From: Pseudomonadota bacterium
GTDB lineage: Bacteria; Pseudomonadota; Gammaproteobacteria; QQUJ01
DNA length: 64,000 nt
Direction: 5' to 3'
Assembly: GCA_008501635.1 (NCBI GenBank)
Contig: QQUJ01000010.1
Coordinates: 1 to 64,000, forward strand
The position numbers were made by a program, and so were the translations under genes. Position 1 is the first letter of the stretch. Each line of letters opens with the position of its first letter. The notes below the pieces were generated by a model. That model saw only the letters and a program-made list of their open reading frames with translations, made no database searches and was not told the DNA's origin. Of this stretch, positions 49,985-63,247 are shown one piece after another.

Positions 49985-52900
49985 ATGCCATATGAATCCA
50001 CTCTTTCGCTGGAACAGTATCGCCGGATCGTAGAGAGTGCTCACGAGGGGGTGTGGCTGCTCGACGCCGAGGGGCGCACGCTCTTTGTCAACCAGCGTAT
50101 GGCCGACATGCTTGGCTACACCCGTGAAGAGATGCACGGTGCCTCGATGTACGATTTCACGGATGCCGAAGGGCGCCGGAAAGCCGAACGCAATGTAATG
50201 CGCCGTCGCACCGGCATCGCCGAGCAGCACGAAATCCGCCTGCAACGCAAGGACGGCTCCGCGCTCTGGGCGCTGGTGGCCGCAAGTCCTGTCAAGGATG
50301 CCACAGGGAATTTCAGCGCCGCCCTCGGTATGGTGATCGATATCACCCAGCGCAAGCTTCTCGAACAGGCCGCCTGTTCCAGCGAAGCGCGCTATCGGGG
50401 CATCTTCAATTCCGCCGGTGTGGGTATCTGGGAGGAGGATGTGCGCGGCCTGAAGCGATGGCTTGCCGGGTTGGAGCCTGCGGCGCGTGAACGGCCGCGC
50501 GATTACTTCACCACGCACCCTGAAAAGGCCCTCGAAGCTGCGGCGCATATCCAGATCACCAGGGCCAATCCTGAAGTGGTGGCCTTGTTCAGGGCGGGTA
50601 CCGAGGAGCGGCTCCTCGGGTCGCTGGACCGCCTGGTCGAAGCCGCCACGGTGCCGACCTTCATCGATTTGTTGAGCGGCGTGCTTGAAGGGAAACAGGC
50701 GGTCGAGGGAGAGGCCATGCTGCGGCGGTTTGACGGTACGCCGTTGCACGCGCTGGTGACGGTCCGCACTCCCGAAGATGCCCAAAGCCCGGAACTGGTC
50801 ACACTGATCGACATTACCAAGCGTGCACAGCTCGAGGAGGCATTGCGAAGCGGCGAACGCCGGTTCCGTGATTTTGCCGAGACCGCCGCCGACTGGTTCT
50901 GGGAGATGGACGCTGAGCAGCGATTCACGTTCGTTTCCGGGCGCTTTGAGGAGGTCACGGGCGTCAGCAGTGCGTCGGTCAGCGGCAAAAGTCTTCGCGA
51001 GACCCATCCAAGTAAGCATTGCGATCCCGAGGTCTGGGCGGCACACCTGGCCGAGCTCGAGGACCGGGTGCCGGGTTTCGCAGTGGAGTTGCCGTGGCGG
51101 CGTTCGGATGGTTCGATCCGCCACATGCATATCGCGGGCAAGGCCCTGGTTGACGATCAGGGGCGGTTCCTCGGTTATCGCGGCATCGGCCGGGACCTGA
51201 CCGAGCAGCGGCAGCTCGAGAAAAAGGTGCGTGCCGATGAGGTGCTGAGCAGCGCCATCATTCAGCGCGCCGCCGAAGGTTTGTGCGTTTGTTGTGAAAT
51301 CGCCGGCCCGCCTTATCTGCATTTCACGGTATGGAACGAGCGCATGGCCGAGATCACCGGCTACGATCGTGAAACCATCAATGCCCAGGGTTGGTACCAG
51401 AGCGTCTATCCGGATCCCGAGTTGCAGGCGCGCGCCAAGCAGCGTATGGAACGCATGCGGCACGGCGACGATCTGAAGAGCGAGGAGTGGGAGATCACCC
51501 GCGCCGATGGCGAAAGACGTGTCATCGCCATCTCCACGACCGTGCTCCAGATCGAAGACGGCGCGCCGCAGGTTCTGGCGCTGATGCAGGATGTCACCGA
51601 GCAGCGCCGCCAGCAGGACGCCATTCTGCATATCGCGCAAGGCGTTTCCGCGGAGAGCGGCAAGCGCTACTTTCAGTCGCTGCTGCGCCACCTGACCGAA
51701 GCTTTGGGCGGCAGCTTCGCCTTCATTGGCCTGCTGGTACCGGAGCGCCCCGACCGGGTGCGCAGCCTGGCGTCGTTCAACCCCACGGGAAGCAGCCGCC
51801 CCTTCGAGTATCCGTTGGCTGGATCGCCTTGCGCCAACGTACTCTCCGATCGCTATTGCATCTACCCCGAGCGTGTTCAGGAGCTCTTTCCTGAGGATCA
51901 GGCGCTGAACCGGCGCGGTGCCGAGGGCTATGCCGGTGCTCCGCTCAGGGATGCCGCGGGCCAGCCCATGGGTGTGCTGGTCGTGCTCTTCCGGCAGGCG
52001 ATCGCGAATCCGGAGAAGATAGAATCGATCCTGCGCATCTTCGCCAACAGCGCCGCGGCGGAGTTGGAGCGTCAGCAGACCGAGCGTGCCCTGCGCCAGA
52101 GCCGCAATCGTCTGATGCTGGCCGTGGATGCCACCGCGCTGGGAGTTTACGAGCACGCGATCCCGCCGCGCGAGGATACCTTTCTCAGCCGGCGTTATCT
52201 GCAGATTTTCGGCTACGAGACCGCGGAGATGCCCCGCGCCGAACAGCTGACTGCTTGGCTGGACGAGCGGGTACACCCCGACGATCTCACCCGGTACCGG
52301 GAGCAGCGTCGACATTTCATTGACGGCGGGTCGTCGATGGGTGAGGTCGAGGTCCGCATGCGGCACAAGGATGGGCACTGGGTAACCGTTCGCGACACGG
52401 CGCGTGCGCTGGAACGCGACGCTTCGGGAGCGGTGATTCGCGCGGTGGGTGTCATCGAGGATGTCACCGAGCACCGGCGCGCCGCGGAAGCATTGCAGGC
52501 CAGCGAACAGCGTTTTCAGGATTTCGCCAATGCCGCCTCCGACTGGTTCTGGGAGATGGGCCCTGACCTGCGCTTTACCTGGTTCTCCAACCTCATCGGT
52601 CAGACGCTGGGGTTCGAGCTCGACAATTTCATCGGCAAAACACGGCGCGAACTGATGAGAGCCGACGAGATCGATGCGAGGTGGGAGGCGCATCTCGCTG
52701 AACTGGAAGCGCACCGCCCGGTTCGCGATTTTGCGTATCAGATTCAACTGCCCGACGGTACGGAGAAAAGCATACGGATCAGCGGTAATCCCATCCACGA
52801 TGCCGACGGCGTGTTTCTCGGTTACCGCGGGGTGGGTCGTAATATCACCGCCGAGGTGGCGGTCGAGCAGCAGGCGAACCAGTTGCGGGCACGCCTGCAT

Positions 52901-55900
52901 GATGCCATCGAGAGCATCGCCGACGGGCTGGTGCTGTTCGACGCGGATGACCGGATGGTGCTCTGCAATTCCGCTTACCGGCAATCCGTGGCGCCGATCG
53001 CCGATCTACTGCAGCCGGGTCTGAGTTTCGAGGCGCTGAATCGTCTGATGCTGGATCATGGACTGATCGCAATTCCACCCGAACGACATGCGGCGTGGCT
53101 GCTGGAGAGGATGGAACGGCACCGCGAGTGCCAGCAGGGGATGGTCTTCCCCATCCAGGATGGACGTTGCATCGAGGTCAACCAGTACCGCACCCAGGAA
53201 GGTGGAATGCTGGTGCTGCACACCGACATCAGCGAGCGGATGCGGGGCGAACAGGCGCTGCGCGCCAGCGAGGCGCGTTTCGACCGTGCCGTTGGCGGCT
53301 CCCAGGCCGGTATCTGGGATTGGGACATCGCGACCGACACGCTCTATCTGGCGCCAGGGTTCAAACAGCTGCTCGGCTACGGCAGCGACGAGATGGCGGA
53401 TTTTCAGTTCCGCGCCTGGTTGCACCCCGACGATCGCGAGCGGGTCATCGCGGAGTTCAAACGCTGTCTGCAGTTGGGTGAACAGTTCGATGCCGAGTAT
53501 CGCCTGCCGCACAAGGCGGGCGGCTATCGCTGGATACACGGGCGTGGCGCGGCCTTCTTCGATGTGGCGGGCAAGGTCACCCACCTCGCCGGTGCCATCT
53601 CCGATATCACCGATCGCAAGCTGGCCGAAGAGGCGCTGCGCGAGAACGAAGAGCGATTTCGCACCATCTTCGCAACCGCCGAAGTGGGGATTACGCTGGC
53701 CGACCCGGGCGGCCGTATCATTCAGGCTAACCCGGCGATACTGCAGATGCTCGGCTACGATCCGGAGGAACTGCCCGATATCGACTGGCAGGAGATCACG
53801 CACCCCGATGACCTGGCGGCGAATCTTGAACTGCTGCAGCAGATGGTGGATGGCAAGATCTCCTATGGTCGCGTCACCAAACGCTATCGGCGCAAGGATG
53901 GCGAGTACATCTGGGTCGACGCCACCGGGGCCGCGCAGCGCGACTTCGATGGGCGGCTGCTGAATACGGTCAACGTCTTTATCGATATATCGGAGCGCAT
54001 GCGCACCGAGCAGGCGCTGCAGGAGAGCGAAGCGCACTTGCGGGCAGTGACCGATCACTCGCCGGTGGGCATGTATCTCAAGGATCTCGATGGTCGTTTC
54101 CTGATGGTCAGCCGGACTTACCAAGAGACGCATGCCGCGGGCCAAGATGTCGAAGGAAAGACGGTATTCGACATCTTTCCTGCCGAAGCGGCCCAGCGCT
54201 ACACAGAACAGGATCAGAAAGTCATCACAACCAGAGAACCCGTGGAGGAGGTGCTCGAAATGGCCTCTCCCACCGGCGGCTCGATAACGGTCAACATGGC
54301 CAAATTTCCTGTTTTCAACAAAGCCGGTGAACTGATCGGTGTCGGCGGAATGAACACCAATATCACCCAGCGGGTGGCAGTCGAAAAGGCGTTGCGGGCG
54401 AGCGAACTGCGCTACCGCAACCTGATCGAGCAGGCCGCCGACGGGTTGGTGGTATCGGACGCCAGCGGCAAGATCACCGACTGCAATCCTGCCACGCTCG
54501 CTATGCTCGGCTACAAGCGCGCTGAGATGATCGGCAAGCACATCGCCGATTTTATTGAGCCTGAAGAGCTGCAGCGGATGCCTCTGAGCATGGATCGTCT
54601 GCGCGAAAAGGGCTCGCTGCTGATTCAGCGGCGCATCGTACACAAAAACGGCACGATAATACCCGTGGAGGTGAGTGCGCGCGTGCTTGCCAACGGCGGC
54701 AGCCAATCGCTGATTCGCGATATCAGCGCCCGCCTCGAGGCCGAGGAGCGCCTGCGCCAGGCGGCAAAGGTCTTCGAAAGTACCCGCGAGGGAGTCGTCA
54801 TCACCGATGCCCACCGCAACATCATCGCGGTCAACATGGCCTTTACCGAAGTGACGGGCTACACCGAATCGGAGGTGCGGGGCAAGAATCCGCGCCTCCT
54901 CCAATCGGGACGTCACGACGAGGATTTCTACCGCCAGATGTGGTCAGCGATCGAGGAGAGCGGCTACTGGCGCGGCGAGATCTGGAATCGGCGCAAGAGC
55001 GGTGATATCTATCCGGAGTGGCAGACCATCAGCGTGGTGCGTGATGGAGCGGGTCAAGTGACCAACTATGTCTCCGTCTTCTCCGATATCAGCGCCGTCA
55101 AGGAGTCCGAGGAGAAGCTGGAGTATCTGGCCCATCACGACCCGCTCACCGATCTGCCCAATCGGCTGCTGTTCACCGCGCGGGTCGAGCATGCACTGGC
55201 ACTGGCGCGGCGCGAGCGCTTCTGCGTCGCGGTGCTGTTCATCGATCTCGATCACTTCAAGAACATCAACGACAGCCTCGGTCATCCGGTAGGCGATGCT
55301 CTGCTGGTGCAGGTGGCCGAACGACTGGGCAGTCTGGTGCGCGATGAGGATACGGTGGCGCGCCTGGGGGGTGATGAGTTCACGCTGCTTTTGGAGCAGC
55401 TGCAGAATCCGCAGCGCGCCGGGGCGATCGCCGCCAAGCTGGTCAATGCGTTCACCGAACCCTTCCTGGTCAAGGGACACCAGTTGCATATCAGCGCCAG
55501 CATCGGGATCAGCCTCTCGCCCAACGATGGCGAGGACGTCGCCACGCTGCTGCGCAACGCCGATGCCGCCATGTACCAGGCCAAAGCGCGCGGTCGCAAC
55601 GGTTACCAGTTCTACACCGCCGAGCTGACCACGTCAGCCTTCGAGCGGGTGTTGCTGGAGAACAGTCTGCGTCAGGCGCTGAAGCTGGAGCAGTTCGAAG
55701 TCTACTATCAGCCGCAACTCGATCTGAGCAGCGGACGCGTAATGGGCGCCGAGGCCCTGGTACGTTGGAACCACCCTGATATGGGTCTGGTGTCGCCCGA
55801 TCGCTTCATTCCGCTGGCCGAGGAGACCGGACTGATAATGTCGATCGGCGAATGGGTGCTCAACACCGCCTGCCGTCAGCTGCGCGAATGGCAGGAGGCG

Positions 55901-56464
55901 GGACTGCCGATCCGCAAAGTGGCCGTGAACCTCTCCGGTCAGCAGTTGCGGCGCGGTGGTCTGGTGGAGAGCGTCGAGCAGGCGCTGGACCGCAGCGGGC
56001 TGTCGGCGCATTCGCTGGAGCTGGAGATCACCGAGGGCTTCATCATGCAGCAGGCCGAGAAGGCCATCGAGGTGTTGGATCGTCTGCGGGGGCTCGGCGT
56101 AGCCCTTTCGATCGATGACTTCGGCACCGGCTACTCGTCACTCTCCTACCTCAAGCGCCTGCCGATCAATACGCTCAAAATCGACCAATCCTTTGTCCGC
56201 GACATTCCGCACGACAGCAACGACGAGGCCATTGCCCGCGCGGTGATCGCGCTGGCCAAGAGCCTGCAGCTGCACGTGGTTGCCGAAGGGATCGAAACGG
56301 CGGCGCAGCGGGGTTTCATGCTCGACGAGGGGTGTACCGAAGGCCAGGGCTACCTCTTCAGTCCACCGTTGCCCGCCGAGAAGTTTGTCCGCTATCTCGA
56401 ACAGAATAGTGCCGAATTGAGTGCGGTCACCAGTGCGCAGCTGACCCGCGGTTCAGGGATTTAG
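49985..56464 (+). CDS. Giant multi-PAS/GAF GGDEF-EAL cyclic-di-GMP protein
   Basis: 2159-residue protein with no signal peptide and no membrane span, so a soluble cytoplasmic sensor. About twelve PAS-type repeats begin roughly every 125 residues (5, 135 degenerate, 292, 421, 708, 842, 970, 1097, 1224, 1350, 1475, 1595), with a GAF domain at about 547-700. A diguanylate cyclase domain follows (about 1711-1885): motif RLGGDEF near 1793, with an inhibitory-site RDED five residues before GGDEF. A phosphodiesterase domain (about 1900-2145) has [15 protein letters not shown] and LKIDQSFV. Both catalytic motifs look intact, so it may make and break c-di-GMP. Repeats at 292 and 842 share DWFWEM, suggesting internal duplication. 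No ribosome site precedes the ATG, but a stop at 49940 limits alternatives. Confidence 0.95.
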
Positions 56465-58734: not shown

Positions 58735-59517
58735 ATGCCCCCGAATGATTCCGCTGCCAGCCCGCGCGTGGCGCTTTACGCGACCTGTCTGGTCGACCTG
58801 TTCCGCCCCAGCGTCGGCTTCGCCAGCGCCAAATTGCTGGAACAGGCGGGCTGCCAGGTGGAAGTGCCCCCAGAACAGACCTGTTGCGGCCAACCCGCCT
58901 TCAACAGCGGCGACGCCAGGACCGCGCGTGATCTGGCGCGGCGGGTGATCGAACAGTGCGAAGGCTACGATTACGTGGTGCTGCCCTCCGGCTCCTGCGC
59001 GGCGATGATCCGCGTGCACTATCCGGAGCTCTTCGCCGATGATGCCAAATGGCGCGAGCGGGCCGCGCAGCTTGCTGCCAAAACCTACGAACTGGTCTCC
59101 TTTCTGGTCGATGTGCGCGGTGTGAAAACCGTAGCCAGTGGATTTACCGGCAAGCTGGCTTACCACGACTCCTGTTCGGGGCTCCGTGAGCTCGGCATCC
59201 GCGAACAGCCGCGCCGTCTGCTCGCGAGTATGAAGGGGCTGGCGCGCGTCGAACTCAGCGATCCCGAGGCGTGCTGCGGTTTTGGCGGCACCTTCTGCGT
59301 CAAATTCCCCGAAATCTCCACGACCATGGTGGCGGCCAAGGCGGGAGATGTGAAAGCGACCGGCGCCGATACGCTGGCTGCCGGCGATCTGGGCTGCCTG
59401 CTCAATATCGCCGGATGGCTGAAGCGCGGCGGCAGTCCGATCCGCTGCTTCCACGTCGCCGAGATTCTCGCCGGCATGACCGAGGGACCGGGCATCGGCG
59501 ACGGAGCGGAGCCATGA
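58735..59517 (+). CDS. lutA: Lactate utilisation protein LutA
   Basis: 260-residue CCG-domain protein of the LutA/YkgE/GlcF type. Two cysteine-rich CCG repeats: ATCLVDLFRPSVGF and EQTCCGQPAFNSG in the first half, HDSCSGLRELGI and EACCGFGGTFCVKFPEIS in the second, which bind iron-sulfur clusters. With LutB and LutC it forms the cytoplasmic iron-sulfur complex oxidising L-lactate to pyruvate. Its stop overlaps lutB (ATGA). No permease (lutP) or regulator lies next to it in this window. Confidence 0.93.
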   Translation: MPPNDSAASPRVALYATCLVDLFRPSVGFASAKLLEQAGCQVEVPPEQTCCGQPAFNSGDARTARDLARRVIEQCEGYDYVVLPSGSCAAMIRVHYPELFADDAKWRERAAQLAAKTYELVSFLVDVRGVKTVASGFTGKLAYHDSCSGLRELGIREQPRRLLASMKGLARVELSDPEACCGFGGTFCVKFPEISTTMVAAKAGDVKATGADTLAAGDLGCLLNIAGWLKRGGSPIRCFHVAEILAGMTEGPGIGDGAEP

Positions 59518-60938
59518 AGCCGATCACCCACCAGTTCGGCGCCAACGTGCGCAAGGCGCTGGGCGATGTGACGCTGCAGAAAGCGCTGGGTCGCGCCAAG
59601 CAAGGCTTCATCCTCAAGCGCAGCAAGGCGGTCGAGGCGCTGCCCGAGTTCGAGGCGATCCGCGCCACCGCCAAGGCGATCAAGGATCACACCCTGGCGC
59701 ATCTCGATCACTACCTGGAGAAGTTCGAGGCCCAGGTGGCGGCCAGCGGTGGTCAGGTGCACTGGGCGGAGACCCCGGCCGATCTGGCGCGTATCGTCAC
59801 CGAGATCGCGCGCACCAGCGGCGGACGCAAGGTGCTCAAGGGCAAGTCGATGATCGGCGAGGAGGCCGAGGTCAACGAGGCGCTGGCCGAGGCCGGTTTC
59901 GAGGCGATCGAGACCGATCTCGGCGAGTACATCATCCAGCTCGCCCACGAACCGCCCAGCCACATCATCGCGCCGGCCATCCACAAGACCCGCGAGCAGA
60001 TCGGCGATCTGTTCCGCAAGTCCCACCATGACTCGCGGCTGGGGCCGCAGCAGAACGAGGTGGCCGAACTGGTCACCGAGGCACGCCGCGTGCTGCGCGG
60101 CCATTTCGTCAGCGGTGACGTGGGGATCACCGGCGGCAACTTCCTGGTGGCCGAAACCGGCAGCGTGGTACTGGTGACCAACGAGGGCAACGGCGATCTC
60201 AGCGCGACGCTGCCGCGCGTGCACATCGTCACCGCCAGCATCGAAAAGGTGGTACCGACGCTGGAAGATGCCACCACGATGCTGCGCCTGCTGGGGCGCA
60301 GCGCCAGCGGTCAGGAGATGTCGGTCTACACCACGCTCTTCACCGGCCCGCGTCGCGCTGAAGATCCCGACGGGCCCAATGAGTTTCATGTGGTGCTGCT
60401 CGACAACGGGCGCTCCAAGATGCTCGGCACCGAGTTCCAGGAGATGCTGCGCTGTATCAAGTGCGGTGCCTGTCTCAACCACTGCCCGGTCTACGGCACC
60501 GTGGGCGGCCACGCCTACGGCTGGGTCTACCCCGGCCCCATGGGTTCGGTGCTGACGCCGTTGATGCTCGGGCTCAAGGAGACGCGCGATCTACCCAACG
60601 CCTCGACGCTGTGCGGGCGCTGCGAAGCGGTCTGCCCCATGAGCATCCCGCTGCCGCGTATGCTGCGCGCCCACCGCACCGAGCAACACCGCAAAGGGCT
60701 CGATGCGCAACGCCAGCGGTTTGCGTTGATGGCGTGGGGTTTCGTGGCGCGCCGGCCGCGGCTCTATCGGCTGCTGATGGGGTTCAATGCCAGCGTGCTG
60801 GCCAAAGCGGCCGGCCGGACGGGGCGGTTGTCGCGGCTACCCTTCGCCAAGGCGTGGACCTTCGATCGCGACCTTCCCGCCCCGCAGGGGCAGGGTTTTG
60901 TCTCTGCTTGGCACAAGCAACGCGGAGGTTCCCCATGA
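59514..60938 (+). CDS. lutB: Lactate utilisation iron-sulfur protein LutB
   Basis: 474-residue LutB/YkgF. An N-terminal LUD-fold region (about 60-290) contains LKGKSMIGEEAEVNEAL and GDVGITGGNFLVAETGSVVLVTNEGN. The ferredoxin-like part has CIKCGACLNHCPVY and CGRCEAVCPMSIP, two CxxCxxCxxxCP clusters of 4Fe-4S type, around 316-380. A C-terminal tail follows. The true start MKPITHQFGANVRKAL overlaps the lutA stop; the frame is open further upstream within lutA but that part is not coding. It overlaps lutC by four bases. Confidence 0.93.
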   Translation: MKPITHQFGANVRKALGDVTLQKALGRAKQGFILKRSKAVEALPEFEAIRATAKAIKDHTLAHLDHYLEKFEAQVAASGGQVHWAETPADLARIVTEIARTSGGRKVLKGKSMIGEEAEVNEALAEAGFEAIETDLGEYIIQLAHEPPSHIIAPAIHKTREQIGDLFRKSHHDSRLGPQQNEVAELVTEARRVLRGHFVSGDVGITGGNFLVAETGSVVLVTNEGNGDLSATLPRVHIVTASIEKVVPTLEDATTMLRLLGRSASGQEMSVYTTLFTGPRRAEDPDGPNEFHVVLLDNGRSKMLGTEFQEMLRCIKCGACLNHCPVYGTVGGHAYGWVYPGPMGSVLTPLMLGLKETRDLPNASTLCGRCEAVCPMSIPLPRMLRAHRTEQHRKGLDAQRQRFALMAWGFVARRPRLYRLLMGFNASVLAKAAGRTGRLSRLPFAKAWTFDRDLPAPQGQGFVSAWHKQRGGSP

Positions 60939-61552
60939 GCGATGCGCGCAGCGCCATCTTCAAGCGGCTGCGCCGCCCCTCCGTCGAGGGACTGCGCATG
61001 GCGCCGCCCACCCAACGGGCCCGTCCCCGGGTCGAGAAGCAGGGCGCGGGTCAGCGTTTCGTCGACAAGCTGAAGGCCGCCGCCGCGACCGTGACGCTGG
61101 TCGACCGCTGGTCGCAGGTGGGTGAAGCGGTGGCGCTCTACCTGCATGGCGCCGGGCGACCGTTGCGCCTGACCCGCACCGACGACCCGCAGTTGGACGC
61201 CGTCAGCTGGCCCGATGGTATGCAGGTAGAGCGGCCGCGCGGCAAAATGAATCCGGCAGTGGCCCTCTCGGTCGCCTTTGCCGGTGTCGTGGAGACCGGC
61301 AGTCTGGTGCTGCGCTCCGGGCCGGAGAATCCCACCACGCTCAATTTCCTCAGCGATTTCCATATCGTCGTGCTGCGCGCCGGGCGGCTGGTGCTGCATC
61401 TGGAGGACGTCTGGCCCAAGCTGCGCAAGGCGGGATTGGGGCGGACGGTCAATTTCATCACCGGCCCGTCGCGGACCGCCGACGTGGAGCAGACCATGCA
61501 GTTAGGTGCCCACGGCCCGCGCCGCCTGCATGTAATCATCGTCAAAGAGTAG
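60935..61552 (+). CDS. lutC: Lactate utilisation protein LutC
   Basis: 205-residue LUD-domain protein of the LutC/YkgG type, third member of the lactate-oxidation complex. The LUD signature is spread over VALSVAFAGVVETGSLVLRSG, NPTTLNFLSDFHIVVLRAGRLV and HGPRRLHVIIVKE at the end. The start MSDARSAIFKRLRRP has CGGAGG 8 bp before and overlaps lutB. After it comes a 206-bp gap with a small GGGGCCTC/GAGACCCC hairpin (61591-61610) that lacks a T run. Confidence 0.93.
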   Translation: MSDARSAIFKRLRRPSVEGLRMAPPTQRARPRVEKQGAGQRFVDKLKAAAATVTLVDRWSQVGEAVALYLHGAGRPLRLTRTDDPQLDAVSWPDGMQVERPRGKMNPAVALSVAFAGVVETGSLVLRSGPENPTTLNFLSDFHIVVLRAGRLVLHLEDVWPKLRKAGLGRTVNFITGPSRTADVEQTMQLGAHGPRRLHVIIVKE

Positions 61553-61727: not shown

Positions 61728-61758
61728 AACTGTACTTCAGTAACCGGAGGAGTTCCCC

Positions 61759-62529
61759 ATGTTCCCGAGACTCAAACCTTCTGCGCAGGCGGTACGCGCT
61801 TCGCTATTTGCTGGTGTGGCCACGCTGGCGGTGGGCGGCGCGGCTGTTTTTGCGGCCTGCGGCGCGCGCAATCCCTGTGCGGGCAAAAACCCGTGCCAGG
61901 CGTGGAGCAAGAATCCCTGCGCCGCGAAAAACCCCAGTGCCGTAAAGAATCCTTGCGCTGCCAAGAATCCCTGTAGCGTCAAAGCGAGTCCTTGCGGCCC
62001 TTGTGGTGCGCGCAATCCCTGTGCGGCCAATCCCTGCGCCGCCCGGTTGAGCAGCGCCGCGCTGCGCAACCAGGTGGTGCGCCCCCAGGGAACCAAACTC
62101 TACACCAAGGGCAGCAGCAAGGATCTGGTCAAGGCGGGTGAGAAGCTGTGGAACGACAGCTCGCTCAGCACCAACGGTCTCTCCTGCAGCACCTGTCACA
62201 GCAACTACGGCAGCTTCGGTGCCACCTTCAACCACCCCTTCCCGCACAAGGTCAACATGGCCGACGCCTCGGGGATCAGCAAAATCGATCTCGATGAGAT
62301 GGTGCAGTTGTGCCTGGTGGTACCCATGAAAGGCACGCCGCTGGCGTGGAACTCCAGGGAGTTGGGCGCCCTGACCGCTTACACCGCCGAGGTGCAGAAG
62401 GGCTTCCGTAAGGTTGCGATGAACCCCTGTGCCGCCAAGAACCCCTGTGCGGGCAACCCGTGCGCCGCAAAAAATCCATGTGCCGCCAGGAACCCTTGTG
62501 CGGCGAAAAACCCCTGTCGTGCTTATTGA
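61759..62529 (+). CDS. Exported c-type cytochrome with flanking Asn-Pro-Cys repeats
   Basis: 256 residues with 19 cysteines. A signal peptide (hydrophobic 15-32) ends AVFAAC, so it is exported, perhaps as a lipoprotein although F replaces the usual Leu of the lipobox. Residues 34-95 hold about ten NPC-type units (period six, consensus NPCAAK; one unit reads NPSAVK). A cytochrome c domain follows (about 100-218) with haem motif CSTCH at 143-147 and a likely Met ligand in VVPMKGTPLAW (Met190); the region MVQLC...ELGALTAYTAEVQKGF is like small cytochromes of sulfur-oxidation enzymes. Residues 222-254 return to six NPC units. AGGAG precedes the ATG. It is the first gene of a four-gene cluster. 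The function is not known to me; metal or sulfur binding next to electron transfer is an inference. Confidence 0.85.
   Translation: MFPRLKPSAQAVRASLFAGVATLAVGGAAVFAACGARNPCAGKNPCQAWSKNPCAAKNPSAVKNPCAAKNPCSVKASPCGPCGARNPCAANPCAARLSSAALRNQVVRPQGTKLYTKGSSKDLVKAGEKLWNDSSLSTNGLSCSTCHSNYGSFGATFNHPFPHKVNMADASGISKIDLDEMVQLCLVVPMKGTPLAWNSRELGALTAYTAEVQKGFRKVAMNPCAAKNPCAGNPCAAKNPCAARNPCAAKNPCRAY
61858..62043 (+). repeat. N-terminal Asn-Pro-Cys coding repeat
   Basis: DNA for residues 34-95 of the cytochrome: repeats of an 18-base unit coding NPC plus three small or basic residues. Codons vary freely (AAT/AAC, TGT/TGC, GCC/GCG), so the protein pattern is better kept than the DNA. This points to selection rather than recent slippage. 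Confidence 0.8.
62422..62520 (+). repeat. C-terminal Asn-Pro-Cys coding repeat
   Basis: DNA for residues 222-254 of the cytochrome: six NPC units, more regular at the DNA level than the N-terminal block (CCTGTGC, CCGTGCGCC and similar variants). It ends two codons before the stop. Confidence 0.8.
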
Positions 62530-62590: not shown

Positions 62591-62875
62591 ATGAAAAACC
62601 CCCGTGCCCGTAAACTGCTGATCGCCGGCGCCGCCGCCCTCGCCATGGGCGCCGCATTGCCGATGGCCGCGCAGGCCAATCCCTGTGCCGGGAAGAGCCC
62701 CTGTGGCGCACAGGCGATGACCCACACCTGCGGCGCCAAGAATCCGTGTGCCGCCGCCAATCCTTGCGTGGCCAATCCGTGTGCAGCGAAGAAAGTGATG
62801 CACACCTGCGGTGCCAAGAACCCGTGTGGGGCGGCCAATCCGTGTGCCGCCGCGAATCCCTGCAAGGCGCAGTAA
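62591..62875 (+). CDS. Small exported Cys-rich NPC-repeat peptide
   Basis: 94 residues. Signal peptide MKNPRARKLLIAGAAALAMG then AALPMAAQA, cut after residue 29 just before the first NPC. The mature 65 residues hold 10 cysteines (32, 38, 47, 53, 59, 64, 73, 79, 84, 91), all in NPC, SPC or HTC triplets; there are two HTCGAKNPC units 26 residues apart. Composition is Ala, Asn, Pro, Lys, Cys, with two His; acidic and, apart from one Val and two Met, larger hydrophobic residues are absent, so it cannot be a conventional globular protein. AGGAGG lies 7 bp upstream of the ATG. A periplasmic or surface metal/sulfur-binding or cross-linked peptide, or a substrate modified by the neighbouring SUMF1-like protein, are possible; none is shown. 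Confidence 0.85.
   Translation: MKNPRARKLLIAGAAALAMGAALPMAAQANPCAGKSPCGAQAMTHTCGAKNPCAAANPCVANPCAAKKVMHTCGAKNPCGAANPCAAANPCKAQ
62723..62872 (+). repeat. 78-bp tandem duplication inside the NPC peptide gene
   Basis: The segment starting CACACCTGCGGCGCCAAGAA at 62723 recurs at 62801 as CACACCTGCGGTGCCAAGAA. The spacing is 78 bp, equal to 26 codons. The copies have diverged mainly at third positions. Confidence 0.75.
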
Positions 62876-62881
62876 CTTGAG

Positions 62882-63247
62882 ATGATCCCGGGGCGCGCCA
62901 GTGTTCGCCTGCGGGGGCCAGGAGGGCCGATAGCCCTTCTGGCACTGCTGGGTGCGGGTGCCGCTTTCGGCCAAGCGCTACCAGAGCTTATTACCATTCC
63001 CGCGGGCCCCTTCGACACCGTTCCGGTCGGCCGTTACCCGCGGGGCGCCAGTCCCTTCGGGCTGTCGGGTGTGGCAGGACAGGTCTACGAATGGACCGCC
63101 ATGCCGGCGGGCCCGGGGCGGGCGCTGGTCAAGGGCGGTTCGTGGGACGATCGCGGCTGCGGGGTGTGCCGCCCGGCAGCCGGACACGGCCGGCCGGTCG
63201 CCTTGAAGCACGTCCTGATCGGCTTTCGCCTGGTGCGCGAGGAGTGA
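62882..63247 (+). CDS. Miniature exported SUMF1/FGE-like protein (internally shortened)
   Basis: 121 residues with a signal-peptide-like start (about 12-30). The mature part begins ELITIPAGPF, the usual opening of formylglycine-generating-enzyme (SUMF1/EgtB/PvdO) domains, but passes straight to DTVPVGRYPRGASPFGLSGV, AGQVYEWTA, LVKGGSWDDRGCGVCRPAAG and HVLIGFRLVREE, their C-terminal third. The middle of the fold, normally over 100 residues, is absent without any frameshift. Cys93 and Cys96 lie where family members carry catalytic or metal-binding residues, though here spaced CxxC. It may be a functional minimal form, a partner protein, or the product of an in-frame deletion. It lies 6 bp after the NPC peptide gene. 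Confidence 0.75.
   Translation: MIPGRASVRLRGPGGPIALLALLGAGAAFGQALPELITIPAGPFDTVPVGRYPRGASPFGLSGVAGQVYEWTAMPAGPGRALVKGGSWDDRGCGVCRPAAGHGRPVALKHVLIGFRLVREE

Follow-up and report, generated by a model that had tools for sequence, protein, structure and literature searches.

Cysteine is the haem ligand in the haem-1 domain of SoxA, and metallothioneins represent Cys-rich metal stores with regularly spaced cysteines and few structure-forming residues. YeeE-like SoxT proteins operate as sulfur importers (PMC11582611). In TsdA, the Cys of the catalytic domain is a haem ligand and the enzyme acts via a thiosulfonate on this residue, while an Arg four residues ahead of the ligand Cys is invariant in TsdA and SoxA (PMC4423706). 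Here we describe a gene in a 64,000-nucleotide stretch of a gammaproteobacterial genome (contig QQUJ01000010.1, positions 1 to 64,000; the window), which encodes a probably exported monohaem cytochrome with a haem domain of the SoxA/TsdA type, flanked on both sides by arms of NPC (Asn-Pro-Cys) repeats. Comparisons to homologues reveal that the arm is a replaceable module on a common haem core, and that genes for DUF6969 often accompany the Cys form of this module. The cytochrome apparently represents an undescribed but widespread family; a search of open-access papers gave nothing relevant on the repeat motif or DUF6969.

A haem domain between two cysteine-repeat arms

An earlier note on this DNA had described a haem domain between two Cys-repeat arms, and this anatomy is confirmed, with ten Cys before and six after a domain with a single CXXCH. 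The gene is preceded by a Shine-Dalgarno-like GGAGGAG at 61746-61752.

61759..62529, + strand: NPC-arm SoxA/TsdA-like monohaem cytochrome, 256 aa, one CXXCH; PF21342, 27.6 bits
61759..61857, + strand: residues 1-33 (...AVFA/AC), probably a Sec signal peptide, of typical appearance by eye
61858..62043, + strand: N-terminal Cys-repeat arm, residues 34-95, ten Cys, one NPS unit
62074..62406, + strand: haem domain, residues 106-216; model with predicted local distance difference test (pLDDT) 93; top folds SoxA haem-1 domain and TsdA
62185..62199, + strand: CSTCH haem attachment site, residues 143-147
62311..62313, + strand: Cys185, invariant (81/81), at the alignment position of the Cys conserved in SoxA-type domains
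62326..62328, + strand: Met190, 98% conserved, the ligand proposed in the earlier note
62422..62526, + strand: C-terminal Cys-repeat arm, residues 222-256, six Cys

The 19 cysteines are distributed over the N-arm (34, 40, 46, 54, 66, 72, 79, 82, 88 and 93), CXXCH (143 and 146), the haem domain (185) and the C-arm (six, spanning 224-253). Strict NP[C/S] units number 14, i.e. 13 NPC and one NPS, the latter being the Ser-for-Cys unit reported previously, and the remaining arm cysteines occur in the contexts ACG, SPC and GPC. The earlier figure of about ten N-arm units agrees with the Cys count and is slightly high for strict NPC. Eight nine-base spellings encode the NPC/S units, with near-even use of Cys codons (TGT 10, TGC 9); hence, conservation at the protein level, rather than recent copying, keeps the repeat pattern. 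Arm misassembly, a concern of the earlier note, and recent tandem duplication are ruled out by the varied codons together with the many homologues.

For conservation analysis, 80 of 245 related loci in other genomes were retained, with NPC peptides among the search seeds and thus a bias towards Cys arms; conservation counts refer to 81 loci or sequences and arm statistics to the 80 homologues. A search using the haem domain only (398 genomes), free of the seed bias, recovered PC-repeat arms in 26 of 29 fetched loci. The arms hold 3-34 (N-arm) and 0-18 (C-arm) Cys, and the C-arm is missing in four homologues. As 1124 of 1144 NPx units (98%) hold Cys while arm length varies widely, selection on the arm cysteines is supported at the level of sequence. 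Plasmids yielded a single weak match only. Armless relatives of 162-165 aa, with MINWC and the common core, were also observed (L088:1396-1884 and L089:1375-1872), possibly representing the ancestral form.

The match to PF21342 (SoxA-TsdA_cyt-c) lies just above the curated cut-off of 27 bits and is marginal alone, but it is backed by the fold. All top 12 Foldseek matches of the haem-domain model are TsdA or SoxA, the best being the Rhodovulum SoxA haem-1 domain (1h31; Z 9.3, 96 residues, root-mean-square deviation 3.8), with TsdA at Z ~8; searching PDB sequences with the domain's C-terminal part gave no match. CXXCH is, like Cys185, invariant in the 81 sequences. Cys185, missed in the earlier note, matches in alignments the Cys that SoxA-type proteins conserve, and its invariance in a Cys-ligated fold makes the proposed Met190 partner doubtful and weakens Met190 as the only ligand candidate. 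The haem is probably coordinated by His147 and Cys185, as judged from this alignment. The position of the catalytic Arg of the thiosulfate enzymes is occupied by Met181 (98% Met in the 81 sequences), and thiosulfate catalysis through the known mechanism is therefore unlikely. The single CXXCH leaves no second haem, and SoxX was not found next door; the host genome encodes SoxAX on another contig.

Arm exchange and linkage of DUF6969 to cysteine repeats

Acidic AEGE repeats instead of Cys arms were first met in two core relatives. We classed 44 cytochrome genomes of a Marinobacter-like genus (one member's core is identical to a Marinobacter locus) into 22 Cys-arm and 22 acid-arm genomes, and 19 of a Halomonadaceae-like family (members' cores are identical to Halomonadaceae loci) into nine and ten, respectively, where the acid-arm side includes the armless L131, L184 with three arm Cys and the partial gene L269. 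At least two arm switches are needed on the tree, with a single acid clade rejected (p-AU 0.018). A stand-alone repeat protein, its NPC-type gene present in roughly half of the related loci, likewise turns acidic in some loci. The earlier expectation of a varying unit number with constant Cys thus holds within Cys arms, where no piecemeal loss is seen, and fails for the arm as a whole, since acidic repeats stand in for the entire Cys arm in two lineages and the cysteines are dispensable. Because the core persists with acidic arms, retaining Cys185 and Met190 (18/18), it is independent of the arm thiols, and the haem thus cannot require them as a substrate.

The exchange extends to the neighbouring genes. 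In a 16-kb context comparison, a tubulin-tyrosine-ligase-like (TTL) ligase and a DinB-family gene were each found in 8/10 acid loci and 0/10 Cys loci, as opposed to DUF6969 in 0/10 acid and 9/10 Cys loci; L274 also carries TTL. In the TTL protein beside acid arms, the TTL domain scores 186 bits (PF03133), and a PqqD-like stretch is weak, matched under its cut-off. In L222-L229 (e.g. L226:9938-12361), a TTL protein of 807 aa and the DinB-family gene accompany the acid-arm cytochromes. The two genes possibly constitute a separate Glu-repeat modification system.

DUF6969 is the commonest neighbour of the NPC cytochrome (59/81 loci); of its 62 copies, 60 share the strand of the cytochrome and 57 lie within 1.5 kb. 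Genome-wide, it is present in 22/22 Cys-arm and 0/22 acid-arm members of the Marinobacter-like genus (p 1e-12) and in 9/9 and 0/10, respectively, of the Halomonadaceae-like family (p 4e-5, nine of ten used), by Fisher tests that ignore relatedness. DUF6969 hence tracks arm type in two independent contrasts, pooled in 31/31 Cys-arm versus 0/32 acid-arm genomes. Among sampled cytochrome-free genomes, 3/53 of the genus and 0/82 of the family carry it.

We also selected 20 DUF6969 loci away from an intact NPC-cytochrome, 18 of which contain a nearby Cys-repeat protein as judged by eye. Here the repeats differ (KKPCAAKKPC, CCAAEG, CAACAAG, NPCGPKK, CGAAKCGAK and others), and in five of the loci a BLH-phosphatase-like domain bears an NPC arm. 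A mechanical Cys-repeat detector, run as a threshold series, identified repeats near DUF6969 in 12/20 loci versus 1/40 far ends of the same loci at the strictest threshold (p 1e-6). Hence, DUF6969 follows Cys repeats and not the haem domain. In L202-L206, the gene directly upstream of DUF6969 encodes what is probably a lipoprotein, in which an NPC arm is joined to a BLH-phosphatase/PTP-like domain (HCASSNR); such arms are thus found on other domains too.

Eight residues of DUF6969 are invariant in 48 sequences (H59, H77, H79, R80, E85, H88, H90 and H122, in HAHR..E..HFH motifs), and are located on or beside neighbouring strands of the model (pLDDT 92), making a metal site plausible. No signal peptide is obvious in its sequence, and the protein is apparently cytoplasmic.

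Operon and neighbouring genes

The cytochrome gene opens an operon-like run that includes a YeeE-type sulfur transporter. It is followed, after gaps of 61, 6 and 5 bases, by:

62591..62875, + strand: stand-alone NPC-repeat protein, 94 aa, ten Cys, no haem
62882..63247, + strand: short FGE/SUMF1-like protein, 121 aa, the domain's last third only, with GGSWDDRGCGVCR; PF03781, 36.8 bits
63253..64000, + strand, reaching contig position 64047 beyond the window: DUF6969 gene (PF22308), 289.6 bits

Further downstream, the host contig encodes a probably periplasmic 158-aa protein without family match, DUF302 and the YeeE/YedE-type Sulf_transp gene. FGE/SUMF1-like proteins with GGSWDD(R/S)GCGVCR recur in NPC-cytochrome operons, and longer open frames with the GGSWDDRGCGVCR motif are found in L050, L054, L081, L196 and L198. 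Immediately upstream of the cytochrome gene, on the same strand, lies a LutA/LutB/LutC-like lactate oxidation operon (58735-61552) that shows no sign of belonging to the NPC operon. At 49985-56464, we noted by eye a protein of 2159 aa that carries numerous sensor-like repeats and a GGDEF/EAL-like C-terminal end.

Proposed function and comparison to known systems

We tentatively favour, at slightly below even confidence, a reading in which DUF6969 is responsible for maturing or protecting the Cys repeats; once finished, the arms would hold either soft metal or sulfane sulfur beside a Cys/His haem. The system would then operate as follows. DUF6969 in the cytoplasm would modify or protect the repeats ahead of Sec export of a SoxA-like monohaem cytochrome, its haem probably on His147 and Cys185 and its two Cys-repeat arms flexible. 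Both the arms and the separate NPC protein would then bind soft metal ions in the periplasm or, as second choice, carry sulfane sulfur there, while the haem domain would give or take electrons near the arms. In other bacteria, Glu-repeat arms and the TTL ligase would take these parts on the common haem core. Metal capture is the first choice because cation binding is common to Cys and Glu repeats. That each tail type is paired with a candidate modifying enzyme of its own points to arms that are finished by an enzyme and bind metal or sulfur.

Several observations weigh against this proposal. The two arm contrasts cannot yield a phylogeny-corrected p <0.05, relatedness being ignored in the Fisher values. 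DUF6969 is missing in the f174 genomes and in 15/23 other Cys-arm genomes (some incomplete); Cys-arm lineages without it thus exist, and it is not always needed. A fold search with DUF6969 (Foldseek, VIA) matched no solved structure, so its enzymatic nature rests on the invariant His/Glu motifs. No metal-resistance gene is constant among the neighbours, and YeeE and the SoxA-like fold could equally indicate sulfur. In the Cys-arm loci without DUF6969, a search for a substitute enzyme gave no replacement, only a multihaem cytochrome being widely recurrent (9/9, 11/14). ArsS radical-SAM- and ArsM methyltransferase-like genes were seen by eye near the NPC-arm cytochromes in 4-5 of the nine f174 loci (L242-L250).

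A role in sulfane-sulfur handling is still plausible in view of the YeeE-type transporter, the SoxA-like fold and the host SoxAX. As a rival reading, the Cys/His haem would oxidatively join sulfane sulfur or thiosulfate to arm cysteines, as in a tethered SoxY-type carrier, with sulfur imported by the YeeE-type transporter. A Sulf_transp gene is present in this operon and in 26/81 loci, and the thiosulfonate mechanism of TsdA (PMC4423706) and sulfur import by SoxT (PMC11582611) provide precedents; however, the haem site is kept in acid-arm homologues without arm thiols, and we consider such a carrier rather unlikely. The same homologues bear on a sacrificial thiol reservoir, where the arms would quench periplasmic oxidants under sigma/anti-sigma control and be re-reduced via thioredoxin/CcdA. 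Genes for extracytoplasmic function (ECF) sigma factors in 25/81 loci, a zf-HC2 protein in 17, AhpD-type proteins in 18, thioredoxin in 11 and CcdA in 10 are in agreement with this idea, but ECF genes adjoin the acid-arm loci too, where arm thiols are absent, and thioredoxin and CcdA occur in a minority of loci, mostly on the opposite strand, which leaves it improbable. That the arms are merely flexible or adhesive spacers, with residue type a lineage habit, would account for their highly variable length, the loss of the C-arm in four homologues and the swappable residue type. The 98% Cys retention in NPx units, the stand-alone repeat proteins and the enzyme genes matched to arm type speak against spacers, and we give this explanation very little credence.

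Returning to maturation of the arms by DUF6969, the locus ties a functionally uncharacterised domain to a clear substrate candidate, exported Cys repeats, and presents a natural swap, Cys arm and DUF6969 versus Glu arm and TTL, on one haem core, as well as a Cys-ligand-type cytochrome outside known thiosulfate oxidation. Should DUF6969 modify Cys, it would be a peptide-modifying enzyme without known fold relative; should it only protect Cys, this would explain the survival of many thiols through export and haem attachment. We consider it possible, at somewhat less than even odds, that DUF6969 founds a new class of peptide-modifying metalloenzymes acting on the cysteines of NPC-type repeats bound for Sec export, and that the SoxA-like haem chassis swaps arms together with their maturases (Cys/DUF6969, Glu/TTL).

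The closest described systems are each matched in part. The SoxA haem-1 domain and the TsdA catalytic domain (PF21342) share the fold, CXXCH and the conserved Cys at the ligand position, whereas the NPC cytochrome has a single haem, no adjacent SoxX, Met in place of the catalytic Arg, and added Cys-repeat arms. Bufferins and other MNIO-modified, Sec-exported Cys-rich RiPPs (ribosomally synthesised and post-translationally modified peptides; PMC12452194) are alike in their Cys-rich repeats, here probably exported, dedicated cytoplasmic partner and often nearby sigma factor, but here the partner is DUF6969, with no fold match found, and the arms are fused to a haem domain; MNIO (DUF692) and DUF2063 genes were absent among the window neighbours and the neighbour clusters scanned. 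TTL/ATP-grasp ligases with RiPP recognition-like regions resemble the acid-arm TTL protein with its TTL domain and sub-cut-off PqqD-like stretch. Finally, the NPC arms share with metallothioneins a regular Cys spacing, most frequently at every sixth residue, and few structure-forming residues, although the arms are probably exported, fused to a haem domain and only putatively metal-binding.
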